Shown here: positions 18,882-48,392 of the stretch, in pieces
How positions within the stretch are numbered: the first letter of the stretch is position 1
Layout of the letters: every line of letters begins with the position of its first letter
NCBI GenBank assembly: GCA_021158465.1
Contig: JAGGUN010000031.1
Coordinates: 1 to 52,759 of the forward strand
DNA length: 52,759 nt
Source of the DNA: a bacterium
Lineage (GTDB): Bacteria > UBP14 > UBA6098 > 4484-93
Direction: 5' to 3'
Program-made: the position numbers and the translations under genes
The notes under the pieces: model-generated
Told to the model about the DNA's origin: nothing
What the model saw: the letters and a program-made list of their open reading frames with translations, nothing else
Databases searched by the model: none

Positions 18882-21677
18882 TTATTTCTCGAATGTTCTC
18901 TGGTAGTAAAACTCCGCAACGACCCTTCTGTTTGCTGTTCTGCCATAGGGGGTATTGTTGTCGCCGATAAGCAGTTCCTTCATACCATCGGGGGTAAACA
19001 CTTGGACAGAATAGGGGCGCGAGTAACCGTAACCAACCGGTTCAATCGTTATGTTTTTCTCCTTGAGCTTCTGTTCAAAGTCATCTCCCCATCTATCCTT
19101 CAACAGAGCCTTAATCCGCTCAACCTCACGCTCTGCCCTCCGCCTGGAAAGCGCTATGTTGTATTCTTCCGTGCCGATTCTGTCCGTATGTCCTCCGATG
19201 ACAACCCGGAGCCTATCGCCCTTGAACGCCTCAAGCCGCCTAACTACATCCTCTTCCCTGCTCTCAAGGAAAGACGAACTCGGGACAATCTCGTTGAATA
19301 TATACTCTACCAGTATGATACTCTCTATCTCACGGCGGCGCAACGACACCTCTGCCCTAAGCGGCTTGCTGCGGAATTCCTTCTCGTGTCCTGAGGATAC
19401 TACCCTGAGAACACAGTAATAACGCTCATCCGGGAGAATAAGGAAATTACCATCATATTTCCAGTTCCAGAAAAACTGTCCCGGAAGTTCACCTTCACCA
19501 CTGGCGAGCCTCCTGACAACATTCCCATAGGCATCCTCAATCGTAAGCTCGTAGCTGTCAAGCTCGCCTATATCCGCAGTGGGGACAACATCTATCGTGT
19601 CGATGAACTCGCGGTTCGGTAGATATTCTTTGACAAACGGCATCCCCACTCTCGGGCGGAAGACTACCCCCTCGGCAGAGAGATACCCTCTCACACAGGA
19701 TAGACCAACCCCTCCATCCAAGATGCGTACAAGCTTTTGCGGAAGGTATCCACGGAAGAAGAGCCTCACATTCTCTGCCCTGCGAAGAGGGAGTCCCTCA
19801 TCCTCCGACGAGTCACGAAACCCTTCTATAAACAGGAGAACATCGGGGTTTTTCTCGAGGAATATCTGAAGCCCCGTGATGTCAAGGCTGTCTAAAGGGT
19901 TTGCATCAACATTCGATGCTCCTCGCTCAAACTGGATCTCAAACAGCTTCCTAAGCGCTGTATCACTGACGACCGCCTCCATCTCGACGCGGCGGTTCTC
20001 CGCCTCGACCATATCGATGAAAAGCTGTGCAATCTCTGTCTCGGGCGGAACGCGCTTACGGCGGACATCTTCTGGCATCCGAACCAAGACCCTCCCTTCC
20101 AACGATGGGTCAAGTGAAAGGATATAATCCCTGACAGCCTCCGCACGCCTGATGGAAAGTGTGCTGTCAGGCTCGTCATCGTAGACAAAGCCAGAAAGAA
20201 CAAGCGAGACACCCGGGTTGGCGGATAAACGCTCCGCTATAGTCTTAAGAAGACGGTGGTAAACTGTATCAACAACGGATGAGTTCTCCTCGAAAAACAC
20301 CACAGGGACAATCGGCTCTTCCTCAACGCAGGTTGCGACCTCCTCGAGCGGCAGAACCGTCTGGTGTGGAAGAACCTTTATATCAAATGAGGGCTTAACA
20401 CGAACCTCGATGCTCAGCACATTGTTCTCCTCGTCGGTTTCCTTTATCCTGCCGACAACATCTGGGAAACTCGTTCCGTCGTCGTCTACGGAGAGAACAA
20501 GTTCAAACTTCCCTACCGAACCTGGCGTCCAGTCCCAGTCGAGCACAGCCTCGCTGTCAGGAGGCAGGCTCTCAATATACTTCTTCGGAAATATCGGACG
20601 ATACGAGCCGCCCTCGGTCAGGTAGTAAAGCGAAACAAAGAACTCAGAGACTTCCTTACCCCCTGTGTTCTTAACGATGCCGGTTACCTTGCCAGTTTCC
20701 CCGCGGAATAGCTCATTCGCTGTCAGGAACATTGCCGCAACATCCAGTTCCCTTTTCACAAGCCTTCTTCCCTGAATAAACAGTCCGAAGCGGTGCGAAC
20801 CACCGCTCACAGCAAAGGCAGAGGGTTCTGTCGGGAAGACAAGCGAATACTCTATACCAAGTCCATAGCTGGGAAAGGCGACAAACGCTCCACCGAGCGA
20901 GACCTCATCGATGTTATATCCGGCGGATAAAAGGAGCCGATTTTCGAGCAGATGCGAACGCAGCCCAATCCTCACCTGCGTCTCACGCCCGTAGCGGTTG
21001 TCGTGAACCTCCACAAGATCGAGGGCAGGAATAAGGTGAGGATACCTTGTAAAACTCACCCCCACACCAAATGCCCGCCTTTCCTTACCCTCCGGGACAG
21101 CTCCAAGAGATAAGTCGGGCTCGACAAGGTTCCTCCCAGAAATACCAAAGATGAAATCCCCCTGCTGAAGGACAAGACCGATATCAAAGCTGGGAGCAAG
21201 TTTAGAATCCTTTCTATCCAGAAGCGGGTCGGGCTCATCGAGCCGGAAGTTCTCGCTGTTGTATGAATTTGCATAGAGCCGAAGAGATGCCCCGATATCA
21301 AGCGATCTCTCCTTTCCCTGAAGGAAACGGCGGGAAAATCCCAGAAGAAGCAAGTTCTTCGAGTAGATATTATCAGAGATAGTCCCCCAGCCGAACCCGA
21401 CTGCACCAATATCCTCGAACATTCTTGTGATGGAAAAGTATCCCTCGTTCACACCACCAGAGATACCAGCGAACAGCTTGCCGTAACCTGCATTTATCCA
21501 GTTGGTCTGGACGGAATAGATTCCACCGGGGTTCTGGAAGATGGTGGTCGCATCCTGCGGATACCCGATGCCCGTCCTTCCTGCACCGAGCCGAACAACA
21601 CCGAAATCATCATCGGCGAAAAGAGGCAGAACAAACACCAAAAGAGCAAAAAGGAGAACACAAGATAGAATCCTCAT
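18882..21677 (-). CDS. PorV-like barrel-CARDB-OmpA fusion protein, copy 1
   Basis: Outer-membrane protein of 931 residues with a signal peptide (1-21). Residues about 25-300 resemble PorV/UPF0164 barrels: GAGRTGIGYPQDATTIFQNPGG near the start and a terminal strand ending in SHRFGLFIQ. About 305-430 is a CARDB-like domain (VTGIVKNTGGKEVSEFFVSL). Two degenerate OmpA-like segments follow (about 450-660), then a FlgD-like Ig segment (about 700-790). A complete OmpA domain (about 800-931) contains GGHTDRIGTEEYNIALSRRR with the peptidoglycan-binding Asp and Arg. It overlaps the cupin gene by 4 bases; GGAGGTAAAGG precedes the ATG. It is paralogous to the gene at 36333-39170, and both lie downstream of a giant Ig-repeat gene. 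Confidence 0.87.
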   Translation of the reverse strand: MRILSCVLLFALLVFVLPLFADDDFGVVRLGAGRTGIGYPQDATTIFQNPGGIYSVQTNWINAGYGKLFAGISGGVNEGYFSITRMFEDIGAVGFGWGTISDNIYSKNLLLLGFSRRFLQGKERSLDIGASLRLYANSYNSENFRLDEPDPLLDRKDSKLAPSFDIGLVLQQGDFIFGISGRNLVEPDLSLGAVPEGKERRAFGVGVSFTRYPHLIPALDLVEVHDNRYGRETQVRIGLRSHLLENRLLLSAGYNIDEVSLGGAFVAFPSYGLGIEYSLVFPTEPSAFAVSGGSHRFGLFIQGRRLVKRELDVAAMFLTANELFRGETGKVTGIVKNTGGKEVSEFFVSLYYLTEGGSYRPIFPKKYIESLPPDSEAVLDWDWTPGSVGKFELVLSVDDDGTSFPDVVGRIKETDEENNVLSIEVRVKPSFDIKVLPHQTVLPLEEVATCVEEEPIVPVVFFEENSSVVDTVYHRLLKTIAERLSANPGVSLVLSGFVYDDEPDSTLSIRRAEAVRDYILSLDPSLEGRVLVRMPEDVRRKRVPPETEIAQLFIDMVEAENRRVEMEAVVSDTALRKLFEIQFERGASNVDANPLDSLDITGLQIFLEKNPDVLLFIEGFRDSSEDEGLPLRRAENVRLFFRGYLPQKLVRILDGGVGLSCVRGYLSAEGVVFRPRVGMPFVKEYLPNREFIDTIDVVPTADIGELDSYELTIEDAYGNVVRRLASGEGELPGQFFWNWKYDGNFLILPDERYYCVLRVVSSGHEKEFRSKPLRAEVSLRRREIESIILVEYIFNEIVPSSSFLESREEDVVRRLEAFKGDRLRVVIGGHTDRIGTEEYNIALSRRRAEREVERIKALLKDRWGDDFEQKLKEKNITIEPVGYGYSRPYSVQVFTPDGMKELLIGDNNTPYGRTANRRVVAEFYYQRTFEK

Positions 21678-36332: not shown

Positions 36333-39170
36333 TTAATCCTCTCCTGTCACCTCAATCCTGACCATAACGCGCCTGTTGACCATCCTACCCTCGGGAAAGT
36401 CGTTCTCCCCAATAAGGCGTTTCCCTTCCTCGGTCTCAATCTCATAAGGCACAGACGGACCAACCCCCTGAGATTTAAGCGATATATTGTGCTTCTTAAG
36501 CCAGTCTTCAAGCCGCCAGCCAACAGGGATACCAACCTTCTTGCTCAGATGAAGTCTAATATTCTCTTCCTCCCTTCTCGCACGGTCACTGGAAAGGGCT
36601 TTGTTACGAGATTCCATACCAATAATATCGGTATGCCCTTCAACAAGTATAACCATACTCTTATAACCGGTATCCATCTTCTTTAGAATGTTGTTCACCA
36701 GCTCCTCCGTCCTCGTCTCATAATACGGCGATATTGGGAGGTCAGTGTTGAAGTCAAAGAGAACGAGCGGCATGCTTTCCATCTCACGGACACGATGAAT
36801 TATCTCCACACTAATGGTGTCAGAATAGGCATCATACTCCTGCCCGAGTTCATCCTCTATATGAAGGTGTCCGAAGAACTTCTTCGATGGGTCGATTATC
36901 TCACCTGCATCATTTCGCCAGTTCCAGACGATGACCGTATCAGGGATTCCATCCTTTTCCTCTATATGCTTGACAATCTGTCCGCTCTCATCCTCGACGG
37001 TCACAATAGAACGGGTTACTCTGGCATCAGAGAGGATCGATACATGGAATCTGTTCAGGCTGTCCTCGACAACATATGAGACAGGTGTCAGTCTCCCTTT
37101 GTCCGGTCTGTAGAGGAGACCATCGGCAAGCAATGAAACCGTAACACAGCCTGTTTGGGGATGTTCGCCAACCGTATTGTAGATGCTGACTCTGTCCCTG
37201 AATCTCTCTGGGACGCTTTCAATTATGGAGCTTCTGACGAAATCTGCTCTCTGGAACGAGAGGCGTGCTGACTCCTTCTCCGACTTCCCTGTTTTGCCAT
37301 CAACGAGGATAAGAACATCTGGGTTGCGCTCAAGGATATTTATCCACTTGCTCGGTATTGGCGATATCTTTGCGGCGGTTCGCTTTGCGTTGGCAGGGAA
37401 CGGCACAACAAATCTTGCTTCATCGGGTGTTAATCCTCTTATCGAGGTCTCCATCTCCACTCGGCGGTTCTCCTCAAAGATCTCTTCTCTGTCCTTCTCG
37501 AGGAAGATACCCTCACCTGCCCGCTTCTTCGACTTATCATATCCACCATCCACCAGCTCCAGTTGATCCTTTGGAACACCAAGGTCAATAAGCTTATCAT
37601 AAACAGCCTTAGCCCGCAAGTCGGCAAGCGGTTCTTTGTCCTCTCCATCCGTCTCAGGGGAGTAGAAACCACGGATCTTAATAACGACATCTGGGTTCCT
37701 GGCAAGACGGTCAACTATCAGATCAAACAACGGTTCAAACCTCTTATCATCAATCTCGTGCTTTCCCTCATCAAAGAACACAAACGGAAGCCTCGGAACC
37801 TCCACCCTGACCGTCTGAACCTCCTCCAACCTCAGAAAGTTCTTCTCCGACACAATCGTCCCCTTCGGAGGAGCAAACACACGAACAGATACGCTATCTA
37901 TATTGTTGCTCTCCTTCTTTTCATCGATGTGCCCGTTGATGGTAGGGATTGCTGTTCCGTCGTCGTCGATAGCGGCAAATATAACATAATTACCTGGTTC
38001 ATCAAAGCTGACCTCCTTTTCCTCCGCCTTCGACTCACCAGAGAGAAAATCAGGATAAGACTTTTTCTCAAGAGGGTAGTAACTTCCACTGGGGTCACGG
38101 TAGTAAAGCGTCAGCGGGATGTTGGATATGTCATACAAGCTCCTATTCGCAGAAGAAAACGAGATGGTAAACTTCTCACCCTTCTTGAGCTCGGATTTTG
38201 AGGTTTCGAGCTTCTCAAGGACAAGGTCGTAACGGTAGACATTTGGTACCCTGACAGTCGCAGAGAATTTATGTGTTTGGGAGACCTTTCTCATCTCAGA
38301 TAGCGGATAGACGAAGGCATAATCTACCTGGAAACCCCATTTGCTCTGGAAACGATAGCTTGCCCCGAACGATAGCTCCCTCTCATCAGCTCCACCACGG
38401 ATAGCGAACATCTTCTCCGAGAACCAGGCTTCGACACCAAGATGAGGTGAAAATATATTCCCACCGTTTACTTCGTCATTTATGAACTGGAAATCAAGCA
38501 CAGGATACAAGAAATCCCGATAGTTGTAAGCAACTCCAATCCTGCCCGTAAAAGGTTTGGCACCGTTGCTGTAACCCTCAAGTGAGATGTCCGGCTGGTT
38601 CAGATCAGATAGAAGAAGCCCTACCGATAACCTGTCGTTCAGGACAAGCTTCCCGCCTATATCGAAACTGACACCTATCTTGCTTGTATTCTTGAAAAGC
38701 TCCTCGTTCGCGATGTCCACAGGCTCATCGGGGTTGGGAACAAACCTCGATTTGTTGTAACCGCTCATCAGTAGGTTCGTGTTCAGTCCGAGCCCAAGGG
38801 CAAACCCGGATACTGTAAACGACCTCGCATATGTCAAACTAAATCTGTTCTCCGTATAGATCCGGGAGGATAGGTTCTGCCATGTCAGACCAAATGTCCC
38901 GACCTTCTGGACAGGATTTACATAGGAGAAAAACCCCACACCGATATTGTCGTCATCAATTCCCCAATATAACCTCGAATACATCCCAGTAGCTTCCCTT
39001 TGAGGCAGGAAAGCCACTCCTCCAGGGTTCCAGACGGTGGCATTGGCATCGTCTGCTAACCCAACATATGCTCCACCAAGACCGATGGGTCTCGCACCGA
39101 CAAACTCCTGTGAAGAAACCCGGGTGGCTAAAATCATCAATACCGAAACGAGTATCGCCATCCTCTTCAT
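36333..39170 (-). CDS. PorV-like barrel-CARDB-OmpA fusion protein, copy 2
   Basis: Paralogue (945 residues) of the gene at 18882-21677, with the same domain order. A signal peptide (1-20) is followed by a PorV-like barrel (RPIGLGGAYVGLADDANATV near 27-46, to about 310), a CARDB-like region (about 320-440), two degenerate OmpA-like segments (about 455-690) and a FlgD-like Ig segment containing VIVWNWRNDAGEIIDPSKKF. A full OmpA domain (about 815-945) contains VEGHTDIIGMESRNKALSSD with the peptidoglycan-binding Asp, and the Arg of DRARREEE. It starts 11 bases after the second giant Ig gene; GGGGGTAAAAGA precedes the ATG. Probably anchors or exports the product of that gene. Confidence 0.87.
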   Translation of the reverse strand: MKRMAILVSVLMILATRVSSQEFVGARPIGLGGAYVGLADDANATVWNPGGVAFLPQREATGMYSRLYWGIDDDNIGVGFFSYVNPVQKVGTFGLTWQNLSSRIYTENRFSLTYARSFTVSGFALGLGLNTNLLMSGYNKSRFVPNPDEPVDIANEELFKNTSKIGVSFDIGGKLVLNDRLSVGLLLSDLNQPDISLEGYSNGAKPFTGRIGVAYNYRDFLYPVLDFQFINDEVNGGNIFSPHLGVEAWFSEKMFAIRGGADERELSFGASYRFQSKWGFQVDYAFVYPLSEMRKVSQTHKFSATVRVPNVYRYDLVLEKLETSKSELKKGEKFTISFSSANRSLYDISNIPLTLYYRDPSGSYYPLEKKSYPDFLSGESKAEEKEVSFDEPGNYVIFAAIDDDGTAIPTINGHIDEKKESNNIDSVSVRVFAPPKGTIVSEKNFLRLEEVQTVRVEVPRLPFVFFDEGKHEIDDKRFEPLFDLIVDRLARNPDVVIKIRGFYSPETDGEDKEPLADLRAKAVYDKLIDLGVPKDQLELVDGGYDKSKKRAGEGIFLEKDREEIFEENRRVEMETSIRGLTPDEARFVVPFPANAKRTAAKISPIPSKWINILERNPDVLILVDGKTGKSEKESARLSFQRADFVRSSIIESVPERFRDRVSIYNTVGEHPQTGCVTVSLLADGLLYRPDKGRLTPVSYVVEDSLNRFHVSILSDARVTRSIVTVEDESGQIVKHIEEKDGIPDTVIVWNWRNDAGEIIDPSKKFFGHLHIEDELGQEYDAYSDTISVEIIHRVREMESMPLVLFDFNTDLPISPYYETRTEELVNNILKKMDTGYKSMVILVEGHTDIIGMESRNKALSSDRARREEENIRLHLSKKVGIPVGWRLEDWLKKHNISLKSQGVGPSVPYEIETEEGKRLIGENDFPEGRMVNRRVMVRIEVTGED

Positions 39171-39181
39171 TCTTTTACCCC

Positions 39182-42100
39182 CTATCGAGCAAGGACAACT
39201 GTTCCGTTGCAGATAACCTTCCCGCCCCGTTCAATAAGATACAAATACACCCCCGGTTTCTGCAGCTTCCCTTTATCGTCCCTGCCATCCCATCTCGAGA
39301 GCTGCTTTGCCGACTGTGAGGCGGGAACCTTAATATGCCTAACCTCGACATTACGCAGGTTATAGATGAATATCTCCGCTTCCTCGAACCCCTGACCTGG
39401 AAAGGTGAATTGCACATAGGAATTCGTCGGGTTCTCAGGGATAAACGGCTTCGGGTAAGCAGCACAGATTATTCGCGGCATGGTGTAGAATACAAAGCAT
39501 GTATCAAGTAGATTAGGTCCACAGGTATCAGGCGAATCAGCAGCAGTGACGCAAACCTCAACGGTATCATCGGGACCAAGCTCAATCCCGAGTTCACCTG
39601 TATTGAACAAAACCCTGTCATCGGAGTATGTTATCCTCGCATCAGCCAGCGGAAACTCATAAGTGTTTATATAAATGCTCGTCTGTGAGATGTCCACACC
39701 ACTTATCGAGTCGCCAAGCTCAAGAGTAACATCCGGAGTATAATCTGTAACTATTTCTCCCTCGGATGGGCTCACAAGCGAGGCATAAGGTGGTGTCGTA
39801 TCCATCGTGAAGCTCCATGAAAGAACGCTTCTCGCCGTGTCACCGAATACATCCGCTATCTGAACAAGCTCAACAGAGACATTCCCATCATCGAATAGCG
39901 GGTCGGGAGTATACACAAGAAGCGTATCGGCAAAGAACTCAAGCTCGGTCGAGTCGACGGTATACATAATACCATCAACGCCCAGTATTATCGAACTCTC
40001 ATCGATCGGGTTCTCCGATATAACCCTTATCCTCACATCCTGGTCGACACAAGCAGAAATGATACCAGCCCGAGGTGTGATAATCTCAGCCTGAATATTC
40101 GAGCAGGGGGTCGTCTCGAAATAGAATGTATCAAAAGATACGACCTCAGAGCCAAACACGGTAGAGTCCTGTGTTGTGCCGTCATAGCAAAGATAATCGA
40201 GCGAGTATGAGCAGAAATTCCTCGCCACAACATACCAGATGTGGCTCTCACCGCAGCTGCAGACAACTGCATAATTCGTTGAGTCGATGCCGGATACGAT
40301 GAGCGAATCATCAAGATAAATATCATAGAATATCGGTTCGGTTCCTGTTGGAGCATTCCAGGAGAGGATTATATCACCTGGGTCGATATATCCGCCGGAA
40401 TCGGGCGGAGAAATAAGCTCAAAATCAGATAGCGGCTCGAACGGTATATCGATTACCACAGAATCGGTCGCCACACAGCCAATAGAATCGGTTACCTCAA
40501 GATAATATACCGTTGTCGATTCGGGAGAAACCGTTGGATTAGCCTCGACAAATGTATCGCCGTCCGCCGTGAACCAGATTATATTATAAGGCTCAACTCC
40601 GCCAGACACAACGGTCGAACAGCCAAGCACAACCTCCACACCGGGGCAGGATGTCTGGTCCTCGCCGGGGAATAGCGCGAGATTGGAGATGATAACCCTC
40701 ATAGAATCGGTCGCATATCCACCAAATGAGTCGGAGACCTCAAAATGCAGCCAGACGGAGGATTCAGGATGGGCAGTACCGGTTAGTGCAGTCGAATCCT
40801 CGAATAGCGAACCGGGAAACCAGCGATATTCAAGCGGCGGCTCGCCACCGGATATATCTGGTGTAAGCACCACCCGCTCAGGTGTCGAACAGTAGGCAGA
40901 ATCCGGACCAAGCTCAACGGAAAGCCCCGCAGCAACAACAAAATCCCAGCAGAATGTAGTATCATTCGGCGGACAATAGTCCGGGAAATCCTCAGCATAG
41001 GCACACACCATGACCGAATCGCCAGAGGAGAATGTCTCACTCCCAGAATAGGAGTAAATCCTATCGACAACCACTCCGTTCACGTAGACTATCATCATAG
41101 CAGAGTCAAGGTTCACACCGGTTATCGTATCGAACACATCGACCGAGATAGTCGTGGCTCCAGCAGGGATAATCGAGCCATCGGACGGAATCTCATCAGA
41201 GAAATCAGGCGGGCTCAGGTCAACGACAAAACTATCGGTAACCGGCTCCGGCAAGTGCCCACCGAGGGTATCCACAACATCCAGAAGCGTTGCAACAACC
41301 CACTCACCATCCGAGAAGCAAGGAGCAGGTGGAGTGAATATGAGCGTATCACCCGAGAATGTTATCTCGGTTTCATAACCATAATACTCTGTTCCGTTGA
41401 CATCAAGAACAACCGAATCGGGGTAAACTCCATACATCGACATAATCAGGAAACGGATTTCCTGGCACTCGCAGGCAGTCGATGCAAGACCATCGTGGTT
41501 CAGGTCAATCGGCATAAGATATGTGGCGGTCGGATATGCACAGGGAATAGTGGTAAATGTAAAGCTTGAACTTGTAAGTGTGTCATAGAAAACCGCATCC
41601 GGATCGCCTGGTAAATCTGCGAAGCAGGAATAATCGAGCGTATGACTGCAAATATTCGATGCAACCACACGCCAGCTATGGCTCTCTCCACAACCGACCG
41701 AATCGATTGTATAGAATGTGTCCGTCAATCCTGTGGCAAGAGCCGCACCATCGAGATAAACGTCGAAGAGGACAGGAGTCGTGCCCGATGGGTAACTCCA
41801 GACAAGCTCGACTGAACCAACTCCGAGCTCCTCACCATCGGCAGGAGAGATAAGCGCAAGCCCACTCAGGGTGTCATAATCTATTGTTATTGTCACCGTG
41901 TCGTAAGCGATACAGCCGAATGTATCCGTTGCCTCGAGATAATATGTGGTCGTCACATCCGGCGTAACTGTCGGATTTGGTATATCGAATACATCACCGG
42001 CGGTCGATGTCCAGCTATATGCAAACGGTCCAAAACTACCCGTCGCAGTCTCTTCGCATCCGAGGACAACAGGGAAGAACGGACAGGAAAGCTGGTCCGC

Positions 42101-45100
42101 ACCAGCAAAAGCCTCGATATCAGAAACATAGACAAAAACGGTGTCAAACGCCGTGCAGCCAGCAGAATCTATCGCAAAGAGATAGAATTCACAGCTCGAA
42201 TCAGGCATAACATAAGGGCTGGCAGATGTCGAATCAGAAATGTAAGCGTCACAGGAAGAGCTCCAACGATAAAATACATCCCCCGTCACTCCGCTTGCAG
42301 TAGCTGATAGCATAACAGAATCACCCGGACAGCTGAATCTGTCCGTTCCTGCATCGACAGAAAGCGAACATAGGAAGGAGACATAAAATTCCCAGCAGAA
42401 AGTATCAATATTGGCGTCGCAATAGTCGGGATTATCGGCGCCCCAGACACACACATATACCGTGTCACCGTCATCGTAGTCGGAGAAACCAGAGACGGAG
42501 ACTGTATCGAAGGTTGCCGTATCCGAGCCAACAACTACCATCATTCCAATGGATATCGAATCAACATAGCTCACGCTATCGCAAACAGAAACATCTATAT
42601 CAACCGAATGCGTTGACACAATGAATCCATCCGGCGGATGCTCACCTGAAAATACCGGCGGCGTCAGGTCAACAAGGAAGCTACCAGAAACAGCCTCAGG
42701 TAATGGTGTACCTGTCGAATCGAAAAGCTGCACAAGTGAATATTCCACAACCTCCGAATCGGCAAAGCAGGGTGGCGAAGGCGTAAATACCAGCGTATCA
42801 TAGCCAGAGGAGAAACTCAGGTTTCCACTTCCCCAGTCATAAGGCACTCCATTAACCTCGACGATTGTCGATTCAGGCAAAATCCCGTGCTCGGATGCTA
42901 TCTCAAACGCTATCGTCTGGCAGGTGCAAGCAGAAATTATATTGCCATCACCGTTGAGGTCAATCGGCTCGAGCACCGATGCAGAAATCTCACCTATCAA
43001 AACATAGAATGTCCAGCAACTGTCAAGCCTATTCGGCGGGCAGTATGGGTCGACGATGTCGCTTGCCGTGACGCAAACACGGACGGAATCACCATCGGAT
43101 AGCGGACCAAAACCAGAGTAGTTAAGCGAATCGATCGTCTCGACTAAAGAGCCGTTAACATAGACAGCCATCTGGAAACTGGTGGAATCCTCGCGCCACA
43201 CCCTATCGTCGACATTCACATGTATGTCTGCCGTCGTGGAATAGATACTCGAACCGTCTGGCGGGTATTCACCGTAGAAGTAAGGCGGCGTCAGATCAAC
43301 GAGGAAACTGCCTGTAACGCTTCCTGTAAGACCGCTTCCCGTCGAATCGACAAGATTGAGAAGAGCAAAATCCACAAACTCCGAATCGGCAAAACAGGGA
43401 GGCGAAGGCGTAAATACCAATGTATCATAGCCAGAGGAAAAGCTCAGGTTCCCACTTTCCCAGCCATAGGGCACTCCCTCAACCTCTACAACGGTCGACT
43501 CCGGGACAATTCCATATTCGGAGCTTATCTCGAATGCTATCACCTGACAGGTGCAGGAGACGACAACAAAACCATCACTGTTCAAGTCTATCGGCTCGAT
43601 GACAATCGCCGAAACCTCACCGATTGCTGCAGTGTAGATGAAACAGTATGTTGACCCGTTGGGAGCACAGTAATCATAATCTGGAATATCAACCGTTCGG
43701 ACGCATATCTCGATACTATCGCCATCGGAGAGCACAAGCGGGACAGGAGAAGCTGTCAGTGTGTCGAAGCTCTCTCCACCATGACCCCAGATATGAACAA
43801 ATATCCGCGTCGAATCTGTATTCACACCCGCAATATCATCAACAATGTCAAAGCTGACCGTAGCATCCGATGTATTGAACACATAACCAGGCGAAGGTGT
43901 TATACCCGCAAGGTAAGGTGGCTCGAGGTCGACGATAAACATACAGGAAACAACAGCCTCAAGCGGGCAACCGATGGTATTCACAGCATTTTGGAGCGTA
44001 ACGGTTACCGTATCGCCGCTTCCCCAAAGAAAACCAGAAGGGTCGAATCTCAGCTCTCCCGTCGCAGCATCCCAGAAAAGACCCGGATAATCTATATCAA
44101 ATGTCGTGTCACGAACAATACCGTTATTTCGCACAAGAAGCCCAACAGTGAAACTTGTATCAACTACATCGAACTCAGATGTATCCTGAACCGAAAAGAT
44201 GACATACTGGTCATCGCAGCTCGTTATATACCCGCAGGAATCGGGATAAATAACAGTTGCAAACGGAAGCACATCACAGAAAAGCACAGAGAAGTCCCAA
44301 CAGTAAGGCTCGGAAAGTCCGTTTGGCTGACAGGTGCATCCAGGGTCAAAGATGATATAGTCGATCGCGGATGTCACACAAACGGTAACAGAATCACCGT
44401 TGGAAAACTCCATTGTAGTATCCGTTCGACCGTAAAGATAATAATGGTCAACTGCACCGCCGATATGCTGAACGGTTATATCGACCTGAATGGAATCTGT
44501 CCAGACACCTGCCATCGAATCGAGCATATCGAACGATATATCGACAATGGATGTCGGAATAACCGAGCCATCGGGAGGCGTAACACTGCCCGCCACAACA
44601 AACGGCTCCTGCCTGTCAACATAGAAAACCATCGTATCGGGCGCGAATGTCGGACAGCGCAGATTCGGGAAGAGAATAACCATCACCGTATCACCGTTGT
44701 TCCAGCCAGCAGCAGGAGCAAGTATCCTGACCGTATCGAGATCCGTGTGTAACCGACTGTCGGGGTATCTTATTGTGTCCTCAGAGATAAATCCATCGTT
44801 GCGAACAGTAACCACCGCCGCGAAATCCTGCGGACGAGCAATCCCACCGGACAAAAGGAGATAATCCACCCACTGATACTGGCAGGAGGTGTATATCGGG
44901 CTGATATCCGGGCAGTTCCGGACGACATCGAGCGTCTCGCAGGGTGTAGAGAATGCCCAGCAACTGTCGAGCCTGTTCGGCGGGCAGGAGCATCCAAGGT
45001 CAGGGATATCATCGTTCGCAATCACACATACGGTCACCTCAGCACCAAACGGAACCTCGAGCGGAACGGACTCTGTCCCATAATACTGTGTTGTATCAGG

Positions 45101-45340
45101 CACTCCACCCGTATCAACAATGACATAGACCGTATCATTCGCAGGAATTACACCAGCTCCATCATCGTGCAGTGTGAACGAAACAGTAAACGATGTATCC
45201 TCCATCACCGTGTCCGGCGGTGGGAAGACATCCATCAGATAAGGTGGTCTGAGGTCGATTATGAACGAGCAGGTAAGCTGCGCTGATACCGCACCTGCCG
45301 ACAACAATATTAGAAGAAGCACAAGCAAAATCCTATTCAT
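39182..45340 (-). CDS. Giant secreted Ig/PKD-like repeat protein with FlgD-like C-terminal domain, copy 2
   Basis: Protein of 2052 residues with a signal peptide (NRILLVLLLILLSAGAVSA). It contains Ig-like pairs as in the 22042-27960 gene (PPxFxxExPPDG openings; SCxxQ and CPPNxLDSC cysteines). There are three linkers with a DLNxDG motif near 583, 794 and 1276 (possible Ca2+ sites), and two PKD-like doublets near 990-1150 and 1472-1633 (SYSWTSTAGD-like strands, TTYYLEATDTFGC), each followed by an FN3-like domain with GESHSW or GESHIW. A last Ig pair precedes a C-terminal domain of about 97 residues (YPKPFIPENPTNSYVQF, SRWDGRDDKG). AGGAGGACATA precedes the ATG. It lies between the Kazal-domain gene and the PorV-OmpA fusion. 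Probably a surface filament or adhesin. Confidence 0.9.
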   Translation of the reverse strand: MNRILLVLLLILLSAGAVSAQLTCSFIIDLRPPYLMDVFPPPDTVMEDTSFTVSFTLHDDGAGVIPANDTVYVIVDTGGVPDTTQYYGTESVPLEVPFGAEVTVCVIANDDIPDLGCSCPPNRLDSCWAFSTPCETLDVVRNCPDISPIYTSCQYQWVDYLLLSGGIARPQDFAAVVTVRNDGFISEDTIRYPDSRLHTDLDTVRILAPAAGWNNGDTVMVILFPNLRCPTFAPDTMVFYVDRQEPFVVAGSVTPPDGSVIPTSIVDISFDMLDSMAGVWTDSIQVDITVQHIGGAVDHYYLYGRTDTTMEFSNGDSVTVCVTSAIDYIIFDPGCTCQPNGLSEPYCWDFSVLFCDVLPFATVIYPDSCGYITSCDDQYVIFSVQDTSEFDVVDTSFTVGLLVRNNGIVRDTTFDIDYPGLFWDAATGELRFDPSGFLWGSGDTVTVTLQNAVNTIGCPLEAVVSCMFIVDLEPPYLAGITPSPGYVFNTSDATVSFDIVDDIAGVNTDSTRIFVHIWGHGGESFDTLTASPVPLVLSDGDSIEICVRTVDIPDYDYCAPNGSTYCFIYTAAIGEVSAIVIEPIDLNSDGFVVVSCTCQVIAFEISSEYGIVPESTVVEVEGVPYGWESGNLSFSSGYDTLVFTPSPPCFADSEFVDFALLNLVDSTGSGLTGSVTGSFLVDLTPPYFYGEYPPDGSSIYSTTADIHVNVDDRVWREDSTSFQMAVYVNGSLVETIDSLNYSGFGPLSDGDSVRVCVTASDIVDPYCPPNRLDSCWTFYVLIGEISASVLEPIDLNGDGNIISACTCQTIAFEIASEHGILPESTIVEVNGVPYDWGSGNLSFSSGYDTLVFTPSPPCFADSEVVEYSLVQLFDSTGTPLPEAVSGSFLVDLTPPVFSGEHPPDGFIVSTHSVDIDVSVCDSVSYVDSISIGMMVVVGSDTATFDTVSVSGFSDYDDGDTVYVCVWGADNPDYCDANIDTFCWEFYVSFLCSLSVDAGTDRFSCPGDSVMLSATASGVTGDVFYRWSSSCDAYISDSTSASPYVMPDSSCEFYLFAIDSAGCTAFDTVFVYVSDIEAFAGADQLSCPFFPVVLGCEETATGSFGPFAYSWTSTAGDVFDIPNPTVTPDVTTTYYLEATDTFGCIAYDTVTITIDYDTLSGLALISPADGEELGVGSVELVWSYPSGTTPVLFDVYLDGAALATGLTDTFYTIDSVGCGESHSWRVVASNICSHTLDYSCFADLPGDPDAVFYDTLTSSSFTFTTIPCAYPTATYLMPIDLNHDGLASTACECQEIRFLIMSMYGVYPDSVVLDVNGTEYYGYETEITFSGDTLIFTPPAPCFSDGEWVVATLLDVVDTLGGHLPEPVTDSFVVDLSPPDFSDEIPSDGSIIPAGATTISVDVFDTITGVNLDSAMMIVYVNGVVVDRIYSYSGSETFSSGDSVMVCAYAEDFPDYCPPNDTTFCWDFVVAAGLSVELGPDSAYCSTPERVVLTPDISGGEPPLEYRWFPGSLFEDSTALTGTAHPESSVWLHFEVSDSFGGYATDSMRVIISNLALFPGEDQTSCPGVEVVLGCSTVVSGGVEPYNIIWFTADGDTFVEANPTVSPESTTVYYLEVTDSIGCVATDSVVIDIPFEPLSDFELISPPDSGGYIDPGDIILSWNAPTGTEPIFYDIYLDDSLIVSGIDSTNYAVVCSCGESHIWYVVARNFCSYSLDYLCYDGTTQDSTVFGSEVVSFDTFYFETTPCSNIQAEIITPRAGIISACVDQDVRIRVISENPIDESSIILGVDGIMYTVDSTELEFFADTLLVYTPDPLFDDGNVSVELVQIADVFGDTARSVLSWSFTMDTTPPYASLVSPSEGEIVTDYTPDVTLELGDSISGVDISQTSIYINTYEFPLADARITYSDDRVLFNTGELGIELGPDDTVEVCVTAADSPDTCGPNLLDTCFVFYTMPRIICAAYPKPFIPENPTNSYVQFTFPGQGFEEAEIFIYNLRNVEVRHIKVPASQSAKQLSRWDGRDDKGKLQKPGVYLYLIERGGKVICNGTVVLAR
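42752..43477 (-). repeat. Near-identical internal duplication in the second giant gene (627-base offset)
   Basis: Positions 42752-42850 and 43379-43477 are close to identical (by eye near nine in ten bases). The offset of 627 bases equals 209 codons, so the frame is kept. The encoded pair share GYDTLVFTPSPPCFADSE exactly, within a larger repeat from the DLNxDG linker to the next Ig domain. Confidence 0.85.
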
Positions 45341-45406: not shown

Positions 45407-47836
45407 TTACTTCCGCTTCTTGACGCATTCCCCCCTATAAGCCACATTTACACCCGCTCTATGGGCATAACATTCATTACTGTATGTCACACCATCACAG
45501 CCACAGACAGGGTCCCAGATATCGAGACAGGCGGTCGGACGCTCCTCGCACCTCCCACAGCTATCACAATCACCTGTCGCCTTCCGGCAGAACCAGCCAA
45601 CAGGACAATCCGAATTATCCCAGCATTCACAGGTATCCCTGGAAAACGTGGTCAGACAACTATCGACATTGTAAACTGAATCAAGCGAGATGACAACGGA
45701 GTCTCCGTCCTCATAAAGATAAACCACTGTCGCAATGAGCGAATCCGGTCTCCCCTCGAGGATTACATTTCTCGATGTCCCAACAAACTCCAATGTATCT
45801 TCCAAACCGTCCGGATGATTGTCGATTACCGTGAAATACAACCTCGATGTGTCTATGGCTACTCCCGTCGTGTCCTGAATCAAAAATATCATCCTCTGGT
45901 TGGCGCAGGAAGAAAACGACCCACAGGGTAACGGGCACAAAACCTCAGCATAAGCCGGGGTGCAATACCTAATCTCAAACACACAAGTGTCATACCCCCA
46001 GTTGCAGAAAGAATCTCGAGCTGCGACAACAAGCGTGCATTCTGGACAGGAAACAGCAGGTACAGACCAGATATAGGATGTATCGGGAACCTCATAACGC
46101 TCATCGATGCCGCAACCAAAGAAGTGAAGTGAACAAGGCTGGTTTATCCAAAAAGAATCTATAACAGACCATTCAAATGTGTATTCTTCGCCAGAAAAGA
46201 CTGTTGAGGGACAATCGCTGATTGTAACCGTTGGAGGACGGGAGTCAAGACAAGCTGTAGCAAAATCCTCACCGCGTAATCCTCCACTTATCACCATCCT
46301 CCCCTTGCAAGTCTCAGACCTGTGCACCCACCAATACCGATAAGAATAGGTTACCTGGACAGGATAAGCCGATTCAACAGCCACAAAGTTACTTACAAAC
46401 GGAGCATAATCCCCCTCATGATAATATGAAATATCACCAGCATCGAGGATGTAAGATGTGTCAATTATACCATCATCGGAAACATCAATCTCAATTAAAT
46501 TACTATCCGAGAATGAAACTATAGAGTATTGCACCCTCGGAAACCCATGCGAGCCGACGCTACCGGTAGGAGGTAAAACATATCGTCTGGACAGCTTTTC
46601 CTCAGGAAAAAGCTGGAAAGCATACATATATCTCCTGCGCTCATGGCTTCCCCACGGGTCGGTCGCATTTATATCCGAGATGTATGCAACCATAACAGGC
46701 TTATCGGATGAAACAGAAATCTCTGCCTCAGAGACATAGGTAACTAAATCACCTGCATCAGCAGAATAGGAGATCCCGTTTATTACGAGATTTGTAGCAT
46801 CCTCCGTCGCAACAACCTCAACCCTCGAATCCAGCGAATTAACATCCAGGGTATAAGGATGAACCTGAGGAGCAAAATAACTCATACCCAAACAGTCGAC
46901 AGGCAAAAGATAGTAAGCAGCGGTAGCACTATACCAATCCGAAGAGTGAAAAGAGTTTACTACTATTATCTTTTTGTCGTTATCCGTGTAGATGTGAGCT
47001 GGATGTGCAATGGTGGAGAAAGTATTATTCTCACCACTGTCAAGGGTAAATGTAAAATCAACAGTTCCCGAATAATCCGAATCGACATTAACTACCGTGC
47101 CATCATCTATAGCAAACACCGTTGTGAAATCGGCAGGCGGAACAGCATATTCACTACCAGCCAACTCGGCAGGATATATCGTGTAACTCAGACCTCCATC
47201 CTCATATAGACCGTAATCCGAACACCTATACCCGTAAAAGCACCAGAGCGGCTTAGTCGAAAATATATGCATACCAACAGCCATAATGGGCACCGAATAA
47301 GACCTGCTTTCATTAGCATCCAAAGCAAAAGAGGAATCAGGTGATCCATCATTATCAAAATCTATCTCCACATCGGTCGAATCATAATGAGCACGGAGGT
47401 AAAGCCGATTCGTGTGACCACTGGCACAGGCAGTATAATCTATTGTATAAGGAAGCCAGTAGTCATACGAGAACAAGGAGACCGCAACTTGGAAACCACA
47501 CCCTTCACTGTCCGGCATATCCTCGCTCATATCCCACCGAAAACAATGCGAATCGGGTGCCGTGGGAATAATGCCAGTGCCCAAATCTCCAGCGGTATCT
47601 GAAAGTGTGCTAAACCATCCCTCTCCCGCTTCAGTCCATGTCGCCCCACCATCGGCGCTCATCTGTACAGATATATCAGCTGTATCACCACTCAGGATGT
47701 AGCATATTGTTACTATATTCTGGCTATCGCAGTCGGTCTCCTCGGAAAACCAGACAGAATCGATGGAAGGTTGCCCCCAAGCAGCGATAGATAAAATGGC
47801 TACAAAAACAACTGCAAACCAAAATTTATTCCTCAC
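45407..47836 (-). CDS. Secreted protein with IgGFc-binding-like region and C-terminal Kazal domain
   Basis: Exported 809-residue protein (signal peptide 1-21; GTG start with AGGAGG 5 bases upstream). Residues about 150-500 contain repeats of a beta-rich unit (STDVEIDFDNDGSPDSSFAL, TVVNVDSDYSGTVDFTFTL, LIEIDVSDDGIIDTSYIL) reminiscent of the bacterial/animal IgGFc-binding N-terminal domain; this match is tentative. An Ig-like region follows. Near 735-768 is a cysteine cluster (CWDNSDCPVGWFCRK) like EB/whey-acidic modules. The end (770-804) fits a Kazal protease-inhibitor domain: DPVCGCDGVTYSNECYAH then RGEC. It heads the chain that continues into the second giant gene 66 bases on. Confidence 0.86.
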   Translation of the reverse strand: MRNKFWFAVVFVAILSIAAWGQPSIDSVWFSEETDCDSQNIVTICYILSGDTADISVQMSADGGATWTEAGEGWFSTLSDTAGDLGTGIIPTAPDSHCFRWDMSEDMPDSEGCGFQVAVSLFSYDYWLPYTIDYTACASGHTNRLYLRAHYDSTDVEIDFDNDGSPDSSFALDANESRSYSVPIMAVGMHIFSTKPLWCFYGYRCSDYGLYEDGGLSYTIYPAELAGSEYAVPPADFTTVFAIDDGTVVNVDSDYSGTVDFTFTLDSGENNTFSTIAHPAHIYTDNDKKIIVVNSFHSSDWYSATAAYYLLPVDCLGMSYFAPQVHPYTLDVNSLDSRVEVVATEDATNLVINGISYSADAGDLVTYVSEAEISVSSDKPVMVAYISDINATDPWGSHERRRYMYAFQLFPEEKLSRRYVLPPTGSVGSHGFPRVQYSIVSFSDSNLIEIDVSDDGIIDTSYILDAGDISYYHEGDYAPFVSNFVAVESAYPVQVTYSYRYWWVHRSETCKGRMVISGGLRGEDFATACLDSRPPTVTISDCPSTVFSGEEYTFEWSVIDSFWINQPCSLHFFGCGIDERYEVPDTSYIWSVPAVSCPECTLVVAARDSFCNWGYDTCVFEIRYCTPAYAEVLCPLPCGSFSSCANQRMIFLIQDTTGVAIDTSRLYFTVIDNHPDGLEDTLEFVGTSRNVILEGRPDSLIATVVYLYEDGDSVVISLDSVYNVDSCLTTFSRDTCECWDNSDCPVGWFCRKATGDCDSCGRCEERPTACLDIWDPVCGCDGVTYSNECYAHRAGVNVAYRGECVKKRK

Positions 47837-47860
47837 AAAATCCTCCTATCTTCATTGTTT

Positions 47861-47945: not shown

Positions 47946-48392
47946 ATGAAAAAAATTCTAAACATAATTCTTATCCTTATCTTTTTCGCCTTCCTCTATA
48001 ATCTTGTCGATATGATGTTCAAGCGGCAAAAGGAGGGTGGGCTGAAAGAGATAACTGTAGCAGGAAACATCCTTGAACAGCTCAAGAAGGAAAGCGCCAA
48101 TCCGACACTTCTCCTATTCGGGGAAAAGGGGAATGATGAGACGGAAAAAATGATTAAAATTCTAAAAGAACTCAAGCTTGACTATGGCTCGAGGCTAAAT
48201 ATCAACTTTGTCGATCTCGAGAAGAACCAGAATGTCAAAAAGAAATACAATATCATAAGGGTTCCTACTCTTTATGTAATAACCACACAAGGACAGGTCG
48301 CTCATAGGATTGTCGGAGTTGTTCAGAAGGAGAGATTAAGATTCTTGCTCAAGGAGGCAGGTCTGCGCAAGAAATGGAACCCGCTGGAATAA
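47946..48392 (+). CDS. Membrane-anchored thioredoxin-fold protein lacking the CxxC site
   Basis: The 148-residue protein has an N-terminal membrane helix (ILNIILILIFFAFLYNLV) and a thioredoxin-like domain: a beta strand TLLLFGEKGNDETEKMIK, a long helix, NINFVDLEKNQNVKKKYNI and the cis-proline loop IIRVPTLYVI. The active-site position that normally holds WCGPC reads GEKGND, and the protein has no cysteine, so it cannot act as a disulfide oxidoreductase. It probably serves as a binding or chaperone domain facing the periplasm. It has its own promoter and ends 4 bases from the facing barrel gene. Confidence 0.83.
   Translation: MKKILNIILILIFFAFLYNLVDMMFKRQKEGGLKEITVAGNILEQLKKESANPTLLLFGEKGNDETEKMIKILKELKLDYGSRLNINFVDLEKNQNVKKKYNIIRVPTLYVITTQGQVAHRIVGVVQKERLRFLLKEAGLRKKWNPLE

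Follow-up and report, generated by a model that had tools for sequence, protein, structure and literature searches.

Results

Genes and domains at the locus

The window, that is the whole stretch of DNA analyzed (52,759 nucleotides), is contig 9 of a 2.04-Mb bacterial assembly and encodes on its minus strand an 809-residue carrier protein (Table 1). The reading frame (45407–47836, minus strand) starts with a GTG codon at position 47836, preceded by a good ribosome-binding site, and its final codons encode CEERPTACLDIWDPVCGCDGVTYSNECYAHRAGVNVAYRGECVKKRK. Judged by its residues, the amino terminus resembles a signal peptide. Residues 142–300 together with a second stretch match the IgGFc_binding family (PF17517), and the carboxy-terminal part comprises an Ig-like domain, a six-cysteine cap and a Kazal domain.

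The carrier is the first in a run of minus-strand genes, its upstream neighbor at position 47946 being divergent. This adjoining gene (47946–48392) encodes a thioredoxin-like protein devoid of a CxxC motif. The next gene after the carrier encodes a 2052-residue repeat protein, for which we detected one internal copy of the Ig-like domain and a weak FlgD_ig match at the end. A search of the 66-base gap between these two genes yielded no terminator-like site; a promoter-like site is present before the repeat-protein gene, at a frequency of such sites close to chance. Based on gene spacing only, the carrier likely heads an operon with the repeat protein, in line with the initial annotation, which had placed it at the head of an operon with a giant protein. 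Each of the 17 genomes of the phylum contains relatives of the PorP/SprF–OmpA fusion encoded thereafter (36333–39170), with 10 matches in the genome of the window itself, and a second such fusion lies in the window at 18882–21677.

Table 1 Features of the carrier locus, with the basis of each assignment
Feature	Position	Strand	Basis
Carrier gene, 809 residues, GTG start, signal-peptide-like amino terminus	45407..47836	-	ORF list and sequence
AGGAGG, Shine-Dalgarno-like, 5 bases ahead of the GTG	47842..47847	-	Read from the sequence
IgGFc_binding-like region (PF17517) of the carrier	46664..47416	-	83.8 bits, cut-off 25.6
Ig-like domain, ~105 residues, usually carboxy-terminal elsewhere in the phylum	45644..45976	-	Profile and alignments
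Six-cysteine cap, Cys 736, 738, 744, 750, 757, 760	45551..45637	-	Alignment and sequence
Kazal domain, residues 763–804, Cys 763, 770, 778, 780, 789, 804	45425..45550	-	Pfam profiles, model, structural matches
Predicted P1 residue, Asp772	45521..45523	-	Position by homology
Cys780, additional cysteine of the CGC motif, predicted to pair with Cys763	45497..45499	-	Cysteine patterns across cores
2052-residue repeat protein, next gene after the carrier	39182..45340	-	ORF list and profile search
PorP/SprF–OmpA fusion, 945 residues, after the repeat-protein gene	36333..39170	-	Profile searches

The carrier ends in an authentic Kazal domain behind a cysteine cap

Profile searches assigned residues 763–804 to Kazal_1 (PF00050) with 31.5 bits (cut-off 21) and the same carrier to Kazal_2 (PF07648) with 23.9 bits (cut-off 22.8). 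Cap and Kazal core form a unit of about 70–77 residues, and the 77-residue module of the carrier scored alone reached 39.2 and 27.3 bits, respectively. An AlphaFold2 model of these 77 residues showed a pLDDT of 92.4 and a pTM of 0.79, and its top Foldseek match was the silk inhibitor 4hgu (E 1.1e-3, probability 1.00), followed by Fstl1 and follistatin. Structural alignment with VIA-align gave Z 5.7 (rmsd 1.9 over 40 residues) for the leech-derived tryptase inhibitor (LDTI) and Z 5.3 (rmsd 2.3 over 39 residues) for 4hgu, values that the program's own guidance regards as middling (Z < 8), with top rows that are all Kazal domains, in agreement with the sequence matches. The Kazal domain is thus authentic and of a widespread prokaryotic kind. 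The initial annotation had placed a Kazal domain at the carboxy terminus of a secreted bacterial protein; both profile scores, lying above the cut-offs rather than below, and the confident model with Kazal domains as its closest structures bear this out. The interval 45407–45535 given there does hold Kazal sequence, but cuts off the first cysteine, the whole domain spanning 45425–45550.

The preceding cysteine cluster had been called EB-like. A cluster of six cysteines is real, but it fits no Pfam family well: among 40 caps the best match was Dickkopf_N (0.00084), and the window's own cap had zero matches. The EB module, which we take to be PF01683, did not figure among the families listed for these 40 caps (E up to 1), which at about 25–30 residues are so short that matches may be missed.

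Compared with the families Kazal_1 and Kazal_2, the domain shares profile scores above cut-off, the modelled fold, a seven-residue reactive loop and the CGxDGxTYxNxC signature, but differs by an additional cysteine in a CGC turn, the lack of the canonical Cys5 and an aspartate at P1. The best sequence match in the PDB, Galleria silk protease inhibitor 2 (2m5x, 4hgu; E 7.6e-10), likewise lacks Cys5; unlike the window's module, it has only four cysteines in the aligned part and neither CGC nor cap. For LDTI (1an1, 2kmo) the core aligns gap-free, with a serine at the bacterial cysteine site and Cys5 present, in contrast to the window. The follistatin domain (follistatin, Fstl1) also comprises a cysteine hairpin followed by a Kazal part, and the alignments cover both halves; the cap alone, however, retrieved no follistatin-type hairpin (FOLN) from Pfam or the PDB. 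The Kazal part of follistatin keeps Cys5.

The module is a stock part of certain bacterial phyla

A scan of named genomes yielded 121 encoding stretches, of which 79 loci were kept. Most of them belong to Planctomycetota (Phycisphaerae), Myxococcota and other deltaproteobacteria, others to Verrucomicrobiota, Bacteroidota, Gemmatimonadota, a Spirochaeta and two archaeal MAGs. Module matches total 310, and arrays reach 12 modules. One array of this length (L019) stems from a MAG labelled Heimdallarchaeota, with all 12 Kazal modules in a 1445-codon frame; a binning error is possible there. With a threshold of E 0.001, 15 of 386 genomes had a Kazal_1 match (3/17 in the own phylum, 12/369 outside). 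Bacterial Kazal domains had been described as scattered, which agrees with this count; they are no isolated oddities, however, but a stock module, mainly of Planctomycetota and Myxococcota and often in tandem.

In an alignment of such modules, every one of the 96 members matched both profiles, Kazal_1 and Kazal_2, with an E value of 1 or less, the other 95 rows sharing 43–69% identity with the module of the window. The cap-plus-Kazal repeats of Phycisphaerae, Myxococcota and others are the same module, but mostly in tandem, whereas the window holds a single terminal copy that follows an Ig-like domain and is richer by one cysteine pair. Of the phylum's four modules, those of the window and of genome G002 have both members of this pair, and those of the paralogue and of genome G001 have neither. 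A tree of 97 modules, with 15 of 94 inner branches well supported, places the contig-4 paralogue (C4) beside the 4484_93 copy and the window near the G002 copy, the latter placement without firm support.

That Kazal domains are best known from animals and that the top PDB match is an insect silk inhibitor could suggest contamination or a recent transfer from an animal. This origin is already contradicted by the 52.8-kb contig with its bacterial neighbors and bacterial ribosome-binding site, by the second copy in the genome, by relatives from two other members of the phylum, and by many near modules in prokaryotes, leaving it a negligible probability. A third Kazal match in the genome (G000:C27, L003) was rejected, as a strong ORF runs antisense to it and it contains a stop.

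Several carriers combine the module with other domains. In a Roseibacillus protein (L052:1734-5219), eight Kazal matches come after VKOR and thioredoxin-like domains, so that an enzyme that makes disulfides is fused to modules rich in them; VKOR occurs in four Kazal carriers overall. In L057:2478-5918 a Kunitz/BPTI domain (9.2e-21) lies near the protein's end in the same frame as the Kazal module, and the L073 carrier contains antistasin-type motifs, the one antistasin match among 74 carriers.

One Kazal disulfide is probably relocated

The classical Kazal order, six cysteines with Cys5 a few residues after Cys4, does not apply to the window domain. The gap-free alignment with LDTI places Cys780 opposite the LDTI serine and shows the fifth Kazal cysteine replaced, and we therefore file the domain as a non-classical Kazal. 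Of the three Kazal bonds (1–5, 2–4, 3–6), the first is impossible in the window, since Cys5 is absent.

The same pattern holds widely. Among 325 distinct prokaryotic cores, 316 carry the extra cysteine, and the canonical fifth cysteine occurs in none of these 316. The set includes non-independent cores from one array or near-identical genomes, and the search that gave the 79 loci used two patterns, of which one requires CGC. The nine cores devoid of the extra cysteine comprise four with the fifth cysteine, all of which have Cys1, and five with neither, three of which also lack a Cys1 of their own; in L084 and L125, Cys1 is kept with neither partner cysteine present. A single core with the extra cysteine lacks its own Cys1 (L046), apparently an artefact of the boundary drawn for the preceding module. 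The subset of cores from other phyla picked by Kazal_1 alone (n = 37) gave 31 with the extra cysteine and no fifth, four with the reverse and two with neither.

Because the extra and the fifth cysteine exclude each other across cores, the most economical reading is a bond between Cys1 and the CGC cysteine. Based on this presence and absence of cysteines, one disulfide has probably been relocated, the new cysteine taking the place of the fifth as partner of Cys1. A non-Kazal disulfide arrangement, raised by the initial annotation as an argument against its assignment, hence probably applies to one of the three bonds.

Acidic residues are frequent at the reactive site

The reactive-site P1 position of a Kazal domain is, as we take it, the second residue after the second Kazal cysteine. 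With a separate core-finding rule, which returned 329 cores (a few from L045 may be false), the Cys2–Cys3 reactive loop was seven residues long in 317. P1 was Asp or Glu in 149 of these 317, and acidic in 86 of the 203 cores without the motif WDPVC; Arg and Lys together accounted for 28/317, with Leu, Gln and Thr among the other residues. Within the phylum, the modules of the window and G002 have Asp at P1, the paralogue has Ser and its G001 counterpart Thr. An acidic P1 is atypical of trypsin, chymotrypsin or elastase inhibitors, and Kazal inhibitors with Asp or Glu at P1 bind the usual serine proteases poorly. The aspartate found here and the frequency of acidic P1 residues thus argue against ordinary trypsin- or elastase-type inhibition.

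These data bear on the alternative that the module is a working protease inhibitor, which would shield the carrier and its neighbors at the surface or block proteases of competitors, predators or prey. Retention of the Kazal fold and of the seven-residue loop would fit such a role, as would the variability of P1 and the Kunitz domain or antistasin-type motifs in other bacterial Kazal carriers (L057, L073). The P1 residues of the four modules of the phylum and the acidic P1 of nearly half of the cores speak against it, and on balance we consider this alternative doubtful. Protease inhibition shielding surface proteins is possible, though not the best-supported function of the module; the protection of surface proteins suggested by the initial annotation finds no support in a domain with no known protease target, P1 Asp and a non-classical cysteine framework.

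A shuffled cassette with a phylum-restricted Ig-like domain

The last ~190 residues of the carrier are common to three further proteins at 52–54% identity, namely a 716-residue paralogue encoded on contig 4, the G001 counterpart of this paralogue and the product of a 447-codon frame in G002, with differing amino-terminal parts, so that one carboxy-terminal cassette occurs on three different amino-terminal parts. Conversely, the first 615 residues of the window carrier have four orthologues, two each in G002 and G005 (52–57% identity), which end without a Kazal module; Kazal_1 had no match in G005, and its one match in G002 was the contig-74 protein. From the differing amino-terminal parts and the Kazal-less orthologues we conclude that the cassette has been shuffled between proteins. 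In the same-genus genome G001, the orthologue of the contig-4 carrier (L010:6889-8987) is broken into ORFs of 519 and 239 residues.

All 17 genomes of the phylum contain the domain that directly precedes the cap, compared with 0 of 128 others. We call it Ig-like as a judgement from its sequence; a model of domain and module built on a three-row alignment gave a pLDDT of 39.2. Comparison of 24 copies with Pfam and NCBIfam yielded no convincing family (best E 0.014). When the Kazal carriers served as query, 27 other copies were retrieved, 20 of which reach to within four residues of the stop codon. With the profile, terminal positions were counted for the 64 best matches; many of the weaker matches lie in frames of more than 1500 codons. 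The 64 comprise the four Kazal carriers and 60 others. Of the latter, 51 end at most five residues from the stop, one at six and one runs off its contig, while seven continue; the profile was built mostly from terminal copies and is biased toward them. The four Kazal carriers have 72–78 residues after the domain.

The genome encodes the two components by which we judged the machinery for type IX cargo, both above cut-off: SprA (669.5 bits, cut-off 200) and PorU (608.6 bits, cut-off 420). A further 40 matches in the genome to the end of the PorU profile (position 967 on) are, by this profile match, probably type A sorting domains. A review (PMC10202324) recognizes three types of sorting domain, A, B and C, and states that type B cargo relies on a PorP/SprF protein encoded nearby; the order in the window, repeat protein followed by PorP/SprF–OmpA, resembles that arrangement. 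In profile searches, neither the carrier nor the 24 Ig-like copies matched a known sorting domain (type A, B or C), and the end of the 2052-residue protein stayed below every sorting-domain cut-off.

We tentatively raise a rather unlikely idea, in which the Ig-like domain would serve type IX sorting or anchoring as a so far undescribed kind, confined to this phylum and fourth after types A, B and C. In the carriers it would exceptionally be non-terminal, its end covered by the rewired Kazal cap, which would decide on anchoring. Among titles and abstract openings, with most subscription journals outside the scope of the search, we found neither such a carboxy-terminal domain nor the bacterial Kazal variant described. 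An improbable alternative is that the module shields the normal carboxy terminus of the Ig-like domain from cleavage by the PorU sortase or by proteases. The terminal position in 52 of 60 Kazal-less copies (at most six residues from the stop), the 72–78 residues added in the four carriers and the presence of PorU are in line with such shielding, but the sorting role of the Ig-like domain is itself only putative and 7 of the 60 copies are internal.

Discussion

Taken together, we propose, with a probability of roughly one half, that the carrier is exported and probably displayed by type IX secretion, and that its tip, a disulfide-rewired Kazal module, serves as a binding or capping head rather than as a classical inhibitor. 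The signal peptide would take the protein across the inner membrane, and the type IX system would probably bring it to the cell surface. Its carboxy-terminal tip would then be a small module with about six disulfides, combining the cysteine cap and the Kazal fold, in which Cys1 would pair with the cysteine of the CGC turn and not with the helix-borne canonical Cys5. Such a module would most likely act as a protease-resistant binding and capping head, in preference to an inhibitor of the trypsin, chymotrypsin or elastase type; if it inhibits at all, P1 Asp would point to a Glu- or Asp-specific protease.

Both the surface display and the function of the module are what we infer for the carrier. 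Display by type IX secretion is less secure because none of the sorting domains known for this system is present in the carrier. The binding or capping head is less secure because P1 varies, with Leu, Arg, Gln and Thr found too, as in true inhibitors, and because some bacterial Kazal carriers hold a Kunitz domain or antistasin-type motifs.

For the phylum, the Ig-like carboxy-terminal domain may represent a new export or anchoring signal, which is testable. For the Kazal family, the frequent acidic P1 is a warning against assigning an inhibitor function by family name. If the relocated disulfide holds, most of the prokaryotic Kazal modules examined would differ from the textbook fold by one bond, which would bear on the origin of the family and would provide a cleaner signature for annotation than the label 'serine protease inhibitor'.
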